Below are positions 8,975-11,905 of a stretch of DNA of 64,000 nt, piece after piece. Every line of letters begins with the position of its first letter. Position 1 is the stretch's first letter. The translations under genes were made by a program, and so were the position numbers. The stretch spans positions 1-64,000 of the forward strand of contig JAKFYK010000056.1 of the NCBI GenBank assembly GCA_021730905.1, written 5' to 3'. The notes below the pieces were generated by a model. It did not search any database, was not told the DNA's origin, and was given only the letters and a program-made list of their open reading frames with translations. The stretch is from Betaproteobacteria bacterium. GTDB taxonomy: Bacteria; Pseudomonadota; Gammaproteobacteria; Burkholderiales; SG8-41.

Positions 8975-9715
8975 ATGACTGAAACAAAAACCAGAATTCT
9001 GGTCGTGGACGACGACGCGCGCCTGCGCGATCTGCTCAACAAATATCTCGCCGAGCAGGGATTTGCCGTGCGCACCGTGGCCAATGCCACAGAGATGAAT
9101 CGTTATCTTGCCCGCGAACGCTACGACCTGCTGATCCTGGACCTGATGATGCCCGGCGAGGACGGCTTGGCCATTTGTCGCCGCTTGCGCGGCGCGAACG
9201 AAGACATCCCCATCATCATGCTCACCGCCAAAGGCGACGAGGTGGATCGTATTGTCGGCCTGGAAGTCGGCGCGGACGACTACCTTCCTAAACCGTTTAA
9301 CCCGCGTGAGCTGGTGGCGCGGATTCAGGCAGTGTTAAGGCGACGGCCCGCCGCGGGCCCGCCCGGCGCGCCCACCACGGATACCGAAATTGCCGCATTC
9401 GGAGAATTTAAACTCAATCTGGGTACACGCTCGCTCACCAAAAACGGTGAGGAAGTCACTGTCACCAGCGGCGAGTTTGCCCTGCTCAAAGTTTTAGTGC
9501 AGCATCCGCGCACACCGCTCTCGCGCGACAAGCTGATGGAAATGGCGCGCGGTCGCGAGTTCGGCGCGTTCGACCGCAGTATCGATGTGCAGGTCTCGCG
9601 CGTGCGCAAGCTCATCGAGTCCGATCCGGCCAAACCCGCGTTCATCCAGACGGTTTGGGGATTTGGTTATGTGTTTATTCCCGATGGGAAAAGCGGTGAA
9701 AGCGCAAAGCAGTGA
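8975..9715 (+). CDS. ompR: OmpR-family response regulator
   Basis: 246-aa two-component response regulator. The receiver domain (about 1-120) has the acidic triad VVDDDAR, the phospho-acceptor Asp56 in LLILDLMMPGED, a conserved Thr (MLTAKG) and Lys (LPKPF). The C-terminal winged-helix DNA-binding domain (about 145-240) ends SRVRKLIESDPAKPAFIQTVWGFGYVF. The phrase VDRIVGLEVGADDYLPKPFNPRELVARI is typical of OmpR/RisA. The partner kinase follows directly, separated by an unusual 70-bp inverted repeat. Likely role: osmotic or envelope-linked gene control. Boxes upstream suggest autoregulation. Confidence 0.9.
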   Translation: MTETKTRILVVDDDARLRDLLNKYLAEQGFAVRTVANATEMNRYLARERYDLLILDLMMPGEDGLAICRRLRGANEDIPIIMLTAKGDEVDRIVGLEVGADDYLPKPFNPRELVARIQAVLRRRPAAGPPGAPTTDTEIAAFGEFKLNLGTRSLTKNGEEVTVTSGEFALLKVLVQHPRTPLSRDKLMEMARGREFGAFDRSIDVQVSRVRKLIESDPAKPAFIQTVWGFGYVFIPDGKSGESAKQ

Positions 9716-9781
9716 AGGAGTGAAGACGTGAAGATGTGAATGGGGTACCCCCTTCACCCTTTCACGCCTTCACCACTTCAC
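9712..9781. repeat. 70-bp intercistronic inverted repeat built from GTGAAG units
   Basis: Starting inside the ompR stop codon, the left arm is four GTGAA-type units spaced 8-9 bases (GTGAAGGA, GTGAAGAC, GTGAAGAT, GTGAATGG). The right arm is their near-complement, ending CACCACTTCAC. The arms match over about 35 bases with eight mismatches and meet at the perfect palindrome GGGGTACCCC (9742-9751). A transcript could form a very stable hairpin just before envZ. There is no U-tract, so it is not a simple intrinsic terminator. Confidence 0.85.
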
Positions 9782-9795
9782 TCATTCGGGCTGTG

Positions 9796-11121
9796 ATGAC
9801 ACTATGGCCGCAAACCCTGCTCGCGCGCAGCGTGCTGCTGATCGCCGTGCTGCTGGTGCTGGCGCATCTGGCATGGTTGCAGATTTTCCGCGTGTCCACA
9901 CGCGAGCCGCGTGCGCGTCAGGTGTCGCAGCAAATCGTGAGCACGGTAAATCTCACACGCGCGGCGCTGGTCACCGCTGAGCCCTCGAAACGCTTTAGCC
10001 TGCTCGGCGATATTGCCGAACACGAAGGTGTGCAAGTACATGTGGCGCAGCGCGGTGAAAAACTGGCGCCGCTGCCCAAAACCGAATTCTACGAATTGGT
10101 CTACGCCGATCTGCGCACACAACTCGGCCCGAATACGCACTTTACGCTGTCGCGCAATGGTGTTGAAGGAATCTGGGTAAGCTTTGACATAGACGGCGAC
10201 GGCTACTGGGTACTGATGCCGGAATCGCGGTTGGCCGGCGATCTATCGTGGCGCTGGATCGGCTGGGGCGCACTGGTGCTGCTGCTCGCTGTGGGCGGCG
10301 CATTTATTATTGTCGTGCGCATCAATCGCCCGTTGCGCGCGCTGACGCTGGCCGCCGAGCAGATGGGACGCGGCGCGACGCCCGCCCCGGTTGACGAAAG
10401 CGGTCCTCTGGAAATCCGCACGCTGTCGCACGCCTTCAACCAGATGGCAATCGACCGCAAAAAGCTCGACGATGAACGCGCCCTGCTGCTGGCGGGTGTG
10501 TCGCATGACCTGCGCACGCCGCTCGCGCGCATCCGCTTGGGCGTGGAAATGCTCGACGACAAGGGCGACGCGTCGATGCGCGCCGGCATTGTCCAGGACA
10601 TCGAAGACATTGATGCGGCGATTAACCAGTTTCTGGATTTTGCGCGTGCGGCCTCGTCGGAAAATGCTACGCAGGATGCCGATCTCAACGCGCTGGTCTC
10701 GGATTTAGCCGCGCGCTACGAACGCGCCGGCAAACACCTCAACGTTCAGTTCGGCGAAGTTCCGCCATTGCCATTGCGGACGCTGGCGATACAGCGGCTC
10801 ATCGGCAACTTGATTGACAACGCACTGCGCCACGGCGGCAATGAAGTCAGCGTGACTACCGGATACGCGAAGTCTGCAGCATTCGTTGAGGTACTCGACC
10901 GCGGCCCCGGCATCCCGCAGGAGCAAGCGGAGCGCATGTTGCAACCGTTCACGCGCATGGACGCTGCGCGCAGCACCAGTGGCACGGGCCTGGGGCTAGC
11001 CATCGTTGATCGCATTGCGCGCATGCACAGCGGACGTGTGCAACTGTTGCCGCGTGAAGGCGGCGGCCTGCTTGCAAGAGTCGAGTTGCCGGTAACGCCG
11101 AGCGTCAGGAGTGATGAATAA
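9796..11121 (+). CDS. envZ: EnvZ-type sensor histidine kinase
   Basis: Inner-membrane sensor kinase of 441 aa paired with OmpR. It has TM1 at about residues 10-32, a periplasmic loop of about 115 residues, TM2 near residue 155 (GALVLLLAVGGAFIIVV), then HAMP (RINRPLRALTLAAEQMGRG), the dimerisation/phospho-acceptor helix with His237 (GVSHDLRTPLARIRLG), an N box (IDNALRHGG) and glycine-rich ATP lids (DRGPGIP, GTGLGLAIVDRI). I chose the ATG at 9796; an upstream in-frame GTG at 9736 would put the start inside the hairpin. No strong ribosome site is seen, so translation may depend on ompR coupling or on the hairpin. Confidence 0.85.
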   Translation: MTLWPQTLLARSVLLIAVLLVLAHLAWLQIFRVSTREPRARQVSQQIVSTVNLTRAALVTAEPSKRFSLLGDIAEHEGVQVHVAQRGEKLAPLPKTEFYELVYADLRTQLGPNTHFTLSRNGVEGIWVSFDIDGDGYWVLMPESRLAGDLSWRWIGWGALVLLLAVGGAFIIVVRINRPLRALTLAAEQMGRGATPAPVDESGPLEIRTLSHAFNQMAIDRKKLDDERALLLAGVSHDLRTPLARIRLGVEMLDDKGDASMRAGIVQDIEDIDAAINQFLDFARAASSENATQDADLNALVSDLAARYERAGKHLNVQFGEVPPLPLRTLAIQRLIGNLIDNALRHGGNEVSVTTGYAKSAAFVEVLDRGPGIPQEQAERMLQPFTRMDAARSTSGTGLGLAIVDRIARMHSGRVQLLPREGGGLLARVELPVTPSVRSDE

Positions 11122-11723: not shown

Positions 11724-11799
11724 TGGGGTGGCTGACGGGACTCGAACCCGCGACAACTGGAATCACAATCCAGGACTCTACCAACTGAGCTACAGCCAC
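11724..11799 (-). tRNA. tRNA-His (GTG)
   Basis: The minus strand folds into a standard cloverleaf: acceptor GTGGCTG/CAGCCAC, D arm AGCTCAGTTGGTAGAG, anticodon arm CTGGA-TTGTGAT-TCCAG with anticodon GTG, and T arm with GGTTCGAGTCC. CCA is encoded (11724-11726) and the discriminator base is C. A genomic G at 11800 can serve as the histidine-specific G-1. Confidence 0.96.
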
Positions 11800-11828
11800 C
11801 GTAGAAACCTTTGAGAATGGTGCCAAGA

Positions 11829-11905
11829 TGGTGCGCCCGGCGGGACTCGAACCCACAACCCCCGGCTTAGAAGGCCGGTGCTCTATCCGATTGAGCTACG
11901 GGCAC
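11829..11905 (-). tRNA. tRNA-Arg (TCT)
   Basis: 77-nt minus-strand cloverleaf. The acceptor is GTGCCCG/CGGGCGC with a G-U pair, the D arm AGCTCAATCGGATAGAGC, the anticodon arm CCGGC-CTTCTAA-GCCGG with anticodon TCT, and the T arm contains GGTTCGAGTCC. Discriminator A and an encoded CCA follow. It lies 29 bp upstream of tRNA-His on the same strand, so the two are likely one precursor. Confidence 0.96.

Follow-up and report, generated by a model that had tools for sequence, protein, structure and literature searches.

Within the 64,000-nucleotide stretch of DNA analyzed here (the window), the spacer between a response regulator gene and the histidine kinase gene downstream of it is filled by a long palindrome, which raises the question of whether this element serves these two genes in particular or is one instance of something more widely distributed. 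As read from the sequence, positions 9712 to 9781 consist of four GTGAANNN octamers, the sequence GGGGTACCCC, and four octamers in inverse orientation (Table 1), which confirms the GTGAAG-type octamers described in a first-pass annotation of this DNA as mirrored around a center; there are four on each side. The same annotation spoke of a near-perfect 70-bp inverted repeat; this holds for the GTGAA/TTCAC cores, while the bases between the cores often mismatch. A repeat finder reports a single palindrome with 50-nt arms (9701 to 9750 and 9743 to 9792) that are 78% complementary, and it is the longest of the 9 inverted repeats listed in the window (arms of at least 20 nt, no more than 200 apart). 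The TGA stop codon of the response regulator gene (9713 to 9715) sits within the first repeat unit. The kinase gene most likely starts at the ATG at 9796, which was picked by comparison with relatives; its mechanical open reading frame (ORF) begins at a GTG inside the array (9736). The pair had been named ompR-envZ, but a RisS periplasmic domain (PF16524) in the kinase makes it RisA/RisS-like, and we refer to the junction as risA-risS. This domain is betaproteobacterial, and together with the best match of the window's PNPase in a plasmid collection (Neisseria, 67.5%) it suggests that the DNA comes from a betaproteobacterium.

Table 1. Coordinates and strands of the features at the risA-risS-like junction
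Feature	Position	Strand	Remarks
Upstream gene, response regulator, RisA/OmpR type	8975..9715	+	Pfam Response_reg and Trans_reg_C
Left arm, four GTGAANNN octamers	9712..9743	+	GTGAA cores at 9712, 9720, 9728, 9736
Palindromic center GGGGTACCCC	9742..9751	.	Variants in 17 further palindromes of the same genome (by eye)
Right arm, four octamers in inverse orientation	9750..9781	-	TTCAC at 9753, 9761, 9769, 9777
Downstream gene, histidine kinase	9796..11121	+	Pfam RisS_PPD, HAMP, HisKA, HATPase_c

The mRNA stem envisaged in the first-pass annotation is borne out by prediction. The computed fold of positions 9690 to 9810 has an energy of -50.9 kcal/mol (z score of -5.6), equaled by none of 200 shuffled sequences, and the predicted stem of 9710 to 9781 is stable on both strands (-38.4 and -44.0 kcal/mol). 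Such stability is in line with a functional intercistronic RNA hairpin resembling REP/BIME elements, with the base of the stem near the stop and start codons, which would stabilize the upstream mRNA or tune or couple downstream translation. No intrinsic terminator (a GC-rich stem followed by a T run) was found between 9600 and 9900, which removes that candidate and also counts against the hairpin. A known Rfam family was likewise discarded, as the only families matched in the window are two tRNAs and the miRNA and snoRNA families at 9400 to 10100 remain far below threshold. The two tRNA genes (His and Arg) lie on the minus strand downstream of the kinase gene (11724 to 11905).

The palindrome has many counterparts in the genome of the window (G000; 5.1 Mb, 91.7% complete). 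There, GTGAAGNNGTGAAG was counted 34 times and its reversed control 2 times, and the corresponding counts for GTGAANNNGTGAA are 126 and 6. By eye, at least 18 palindromes with a GGTACC-like center were recognized, including the copy in the window (the other 17 in 33 stretches examined), together with about ten arrays of GTGAAC units that have no GGTACC-like center; the resulting list of copies is a lower bound. When 38 array clusters were classed by mechanical ORFs, 30 fell between ORFs and 8 within them, 6 of the latter being single pairs of units, as chance would produce. The clusters between ORFs, 6 of which rest on one pair of units, comprise 23 at co-directional, 3 at convergent, and 4 at divergent junctions. 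These are the mechanical counts, although by eye three loci classed as divergent (L032, L033, and L034) would be co-directional and the first array of L040, classed as co-directional, would be convergent. Array-bearing junctions, identified by Pfam or by eye, include hslV-hslU, leuD-leuB, guaB-guaA, kdsB, nuoJ, hrcA-hemH, and fumC. Since the element is not specific to the risA-risS operon, evolved control of the kinase by the stem, as proposed in the first-pass annotation, is not the first explanation for it; that annotation saw a real palindrome but took too local a view.

The check it suggested, for similar arrays elsewhere in the genome and in relatives, also finds them at the junction itself: 9 of 13 congeners carry an inverted array between risA and risS, built of other units or with another period. 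The period is 8 bp in L115, L116, and L119, 7 bp in L118, L120, L121, L123, and L124, and both in L125. Of the remaining congeners, one has a different inverted repeat (L122), one has no repeat (L126), and in two the kinase was not seen within the 330 bases examined (L114 and L117). The idea that the absence of the repeat from close relatives, with the kinase unchanged, would speak against a function is therefore not simply applicable here: besides the congener without any repeat and the two in which the kinase was not seen nearby, most replace the array by one of different units or period.

Other operon junctions behave in the same way. At hslV-hslU, 30 loci were processed (2 without the motif), and in the by-eye count, which covers 20 loci of the same family, 14 carry arrays of about seven unit types (GTGAAG, GTGAAC, GTGAGGC, GAGTAAG, GTGATTG, GCGATAA, and GTGAACG). 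Three of the 20 are empty ATGA overlaps (L155 and L159, both within the genus, and L164), one lacks an array (L163), and two have other or unclear repeats (L167 and L168). In L122 (G003, risA-risS) and L167 (G017, hslV-hslU), the inverted repeats consist of longer units, which are ATCTGTGTTCATCTGTG-like and CGCAGATACACGCAGAT-like, respectively. In L158 (G004), the right arm of the hslV-hslU array contains 13 TTCAC units whose spacing varies between 7 and 8 bp, which points to local tandem expansion. For leuD-leuB, 13 loci were processed (2 without the motif), and arrays were seen by eye at 8, an unrelated CATTCCCGC palindrome at 2, and nothing at 1; the CATTCCCGC-type palindrome takes the place of the array in L184 (G006) and L192 (G008). 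For 6 of 20 arrays of genome G011, the orthologous junction of G000 also has an array, in 5 of these 6 cases in another flavor, against a chance expectation of about 0.4, which derives from the 110,933 bases of G000 compared (about 2% of the genome) and ignores gene conservation. Recurrence of the same junctions with a changing unit code implies either a preference for certain sites or inheritance with rewriting. Operon joints are usually regarded as tight and conserved, and here palindromic arrays whose code varies occupy the joints of core operons again and again. We think that these recurring arrays are natural experiments on what spreads them and what reads 7- or 8-bp units, and also on how a long intercistronic stem bears on protein ratios, including those of a two-component system.

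The orthologous arrays of the close species G004, G005, and G011 look inherited. In four orthologous array pairs, changes amount to 12 of 166 core positions against 9 of 71 spacer positions (P = 0.21) and 17 of 94 loop positions (P = 0.013 for core versus loop). In both comparisons, 10 of the 12 core changes trace to just two places, a loop that contains GTGAA by chance and a first unit that is shifted.

A scan for tandem periods of 4 to 15 bp, covering 1.725 Mb from 16 genomes of the family in stretches partly picked for GTGAA arrays, gave 238 matches, of which 140 have a period of 7, 50 of 8, 21 of 14, 11 of 9, and 9 of 6, with 0 to 2 for each of the others; a block-shuffled control gave 5 matches at period 7 and 0 at all other periods. 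Arms with a period of 7 or 8 number 190 and resolve into 72 consensus flavors in the sampled stretches, several of them within one genome. Among the junctions of this multigenome set, delimited by mechanical ORFs, arrays occur at 77 of 916 co-directional, 20 of 294 convergent, and 24 of 284 divergent ones, corresponding to 0.76, 0.49, and 0.50 arrays per intergenic kb, a milder bias than in G000, and 25 of the 190 arms lie away from any inter-ORF gap. The distance of arrays from the upstream stop codon peaks near zero, which is partly mechanical because many arrays contain stops.

Triplets of octamers were detected in 25 of 60 relatives and triplets of heptamers in 31 of 60. Across the order, the distribution is patchy: of 399 genomes, 75 have one or the other, and the families with high counts are scattered. 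Quadruple octamers are found in 3 of 398 genomes of a phylum sample, G000 among them; in the other two they are confined to one strand, and the matches listed for either genome fall within a single tandem run. A scan of 84,980 named species for the GGGTACC-centered form, in a collection that may leave out records near G000, returned 19 matches in scattered phyla, none of them followed within 45 bases by two inverted units spaced 8 bp apart. Two of the 19 have TTCACTTCAC in common, and the 19 matches are probably due to chance.

What is conserved in the units bears directly on the hairpin. We collected paired arrays whose arms contain at least three exact units (49 octamer and 10 heptamer arrays). 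The commonest build is 4+4 (24 of the 49 octamer arrays), with three to four units per arm in 19 more, and the loop between the arms of the octamer arrays ranges from 11 to 137 nt with no evident helical phase. If pairing were under selection, the variable bases of partner units should match, yet they match no better than those of nonpartners: 0.75, 0.67, and 0.30 for partner spacers against 0.70, 0.70, and 0.37 in octamers, and 0.83 and 0.33 against 0.83 and 0.43 in heptamers. Nor do the substitutions follow RNA pairing. Among 159 single-base variants of GTGAA adjoining exact units (five classes summed), positions 1 to 5 changed 22, 11, 69, 5, and 52 times. A4>G was seen 2 times and A5>G 26 times, although the mutation is the same and both leave a G-U pair, and the commonest substitution, G3>A (52 times), breaks the pair. 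The constraint resembles the motif GT[G>A>T]A[A>G] and is the same in sense and antisense arms. The lack of spacer covariation, together with substitutions unlike those expected from RNA pairing, suggests that the units are kept as units and read as a DNA motif. The annotation had also allowed that the repeat may bind a protein, and judging from the partner spacers, which are no more alike than others, and from the asymmetry between A4>G and A5>G, this is the better supported half of its proposal.

For the functional hairpin, the position of arrays inside operons, directly after the upstream stop, and their presence at conserved junctions of many relatives add to the predicted stability. Its difficulties are the variable positions that do not covary between arms, the lack of preference for substitutions that keep a G-U pair, the wide range of loop lengths, and the absence of the array from the same junction in some relatives. 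We therefore consider it rather unlikely as the primary explanation, and the predicted mRNA hairpin is probably secondary.

Since a period of 7 or 8 puts TGA in all frames and inversion extends this to both strands, the arrays could also be six-frame translation-stop cassettes. In keeping with this, upstream stops fall within the array, and when GTGAA octamers flanked on both sides differ at one base, 33 of 34 retain the stop triplet, as do 11 of 11 variants of CTGAG heptamers. However, retention is as marked elsewhere, with 35 of 37 in antisense arms against 44 of 51 in sense arms, and 9 of 10 at divergent junctions, and it is weaker in other units (11 of 15 GTGAA heptamers, 11 of 16 GTGAG, 2 of 3 GTGAT, and 1 of 7 TTGAA heptamers). 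Many flavors, e.g., GGAACTT and CGGGTTC, have no stop at all. With stop codons replaced by relabeled triplet sets, the true set ranks second of 24, with 64 of the 190 arms where the top set has 77. The retention in antisense arms and the weaker or stopless flavors indicate that translation is not what keeps the unit; the cassette is mostly refuted by the sense/antisense comparison, with the flavor list and the triplet-set control also against it, and we deem it most improbable. Stop-bearing units could nevertheless make insertion beside a gene end harmless.

The order of units within copies bears on their origin. When all units are included, spacers of G000 copies match at 0.452 for the same index and 0.413 for different indices. 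Once the innermost unit is excluded, spacers at the same place match no better than those at different places in G000, G004, and G024 (the observed value was equaled or exceeded in 85, 82, and 109 of 150 permutations) and slightly better in G011 and G019 (6 of 150 permutations each). The same-index excess is thus gone in three of the five genomes and small in two, and descent of the copies from one sequence was rejected. By this comparison of spacers, array copies have units, and not an element sequence, in common. Recent copy-and-paste would give more of a common unit order, and its lack weighs against recent copying.

Copies without a common unit order are also what would be expected if arrays formed and were rewritten in place, via replication slippage and template switching at palindromes, as the two periods of 7 and 8, the mixed 7/8 registers, and the long one-sided arm (L125 and L158) would suggest. 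Against this, the identical flavor and center at many unlinked loci of one genome mean that local sequence alone is insufficient, and partner units do not have the common spacers that arm-to-arm copying would leave. Such local formation is, to our mind, improbable as a sufficient account.

The explanation we favor, with somewhat less than even confidence, is a dispersed, lineage-specific element whose 7- or 8-bp units are read by a protein and which lands or survives at operon junctions; we rank it above the functional hairpin and above regulatory sites of the host. The palindrome of the window would be one copy of this dispersed repeat, in which a short center or loop separates two inverted arms, each typically made of four tandem units that measure 8 bp here and 7 bp elsewhere. 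The conserved short motif, here G-T-[G/A/T]-A-A, would most likely be recognized by a protein at the level of single DNA bases; a plausible candidate is a recombinase or transposase by which the element is spread or rewritten. Copies would insert into, or persist in, the narrow gaps between cotranscribed genes, where the element can provide the upstream stop while the downstream start stays intact, and in the mRNA its arms would fold into a stem between the cistrons, with a possible secondary effect on the relative amounts of the two proteins or on their coupling. The computations establish the anatomy, the copy number, the excess at operon junctions, the recurrence at shared sites with changing flavor, the absence of covariation between arms, and the position-specific constraint; a protein reader, mobility, and any influence on expression are inferences. 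This reading is supported by the high copy number with lineage-specific flavors, the regular 4+4 build, the junction excess, the change of flavor at shared junctions, and the empty hslV-hslU sites (L155 and L159), as well as by partner spacers that are not driven by pairing and a motif-like constraint on both strands. We weigh against it the milder junction excess in the multigenome set and the inherited look of the orthologous arrays of G004, G005, and G011, which also fits a retained host function. It is further weakened by the Y1 transposase profile, in a search confined to the Y1 family, having no match in G000 (91.7% complete), G001, or G013. No target-site duplication was found, the empty hslV-hslU sites being ATGA overlaps. 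As regards a comparison with MITEs, such empty overlaps are seen, while no duplication was found and the copies have no common unit order. A bolder version, in which an unnamed class of mobile or rewriting DNA elements has ends made of rows of about four 7- or 8-bp units, a dedicated reader protein, and operon stop/start joints as targets, where it is swapped for differently coded versions as species diverge, is conceivable but on balance unlikely.

Among known systems, REP/BIME elements and REPINs with their RAYT transposases are, in the parts of the reports considered, similarly high-copy extragenic palindromes (PMC2817692, PMC3116915). The arms described here are tandem units, G000 has no Y1/RAYT match, and the Y1 loci examined in congeners are without arrays. 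REP arms are single hairpins. A RAYT/REPIN origin is accordingly not supported, on the basis of 0 Y1_Tnp matches in G000 and 30 of 30 congener Y1 loci lacking a 7/8-mer array (the only match is a run of N in L320).

The architecture belongs, in our analysis, with paired sites of the Geobacter metallireducens genome, for which the portion of the account considered proposes IHF/HU binding at rows of octanucleotides that form opposite-strand pairs a variable distance apart, and at classes of heptanucleotides; insertion sequences lie close by (PMC2700814). Class 1 there has four GTTGCTYN octamers, the outer two poorly conserved, class 3 has mostly five MTYCTGA heptamers, and another set has two TWGTTGAY units per strand (PMC2700814). 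Both groups of sites, as far as that portion goes, are multicopy, with several tandem 7- to 8-nt units per site, opposite-strand pairs, and variable spacing, but the unit sequences differ, and placement at operon junctions and flavor change at orthologous junctions are features of the present arrays that do not appear in that portion of the Geobacter account. The IHF/HU reading, itself a proposal, suggests that the arrays might be functional, coevolving chromosomal sites of a nucleoid-associated or regulatory host protein that reads tandem 7/8-bp units. Position-specific constraint equal on both strands, the regular 4+4 build, units exchangeable within arms, and junctions common to different species all agree with such a protein, as does the published Geobacter parallel to the extent described; placement between operon genes and the 72 flavors, several per genome and too many for a single protein to be expected to read, do not. 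We judge host-protein sites to be unlikely, ranking them below both the dispersed element and the hairpin.

The TAACTGA heptamer repeats of Beggiatoaceae, Cyanobacteria, and Bacteroidetes, direct repeats with 169 sets and one indirect set in the genome described, according to the part of the report consulted (PMC4679880), are likewise short tandem 7-mers, mostly intergenic and in many copies, some of which overlap the upstream stop codon. That part also has them placing stops in all frames in one direction, which can be likened to the arrays here (PMC4679880). They differ, by the same partial account, in being direct repeats of one fixed unit, located mostly just upstream of the start codon and usually devoid of an inverted partner arm (PMC4679880). 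A literature search gave no description of these GTGAA arrays among the matches listed.

Copies also look unevenly spread. Several arrays lie within tens of kb of each other on contigs C2 and C9 of G000 (L031 and L039 to L041), and contig C3 of G005 carries only three GTGAA arrays in 200 kb.
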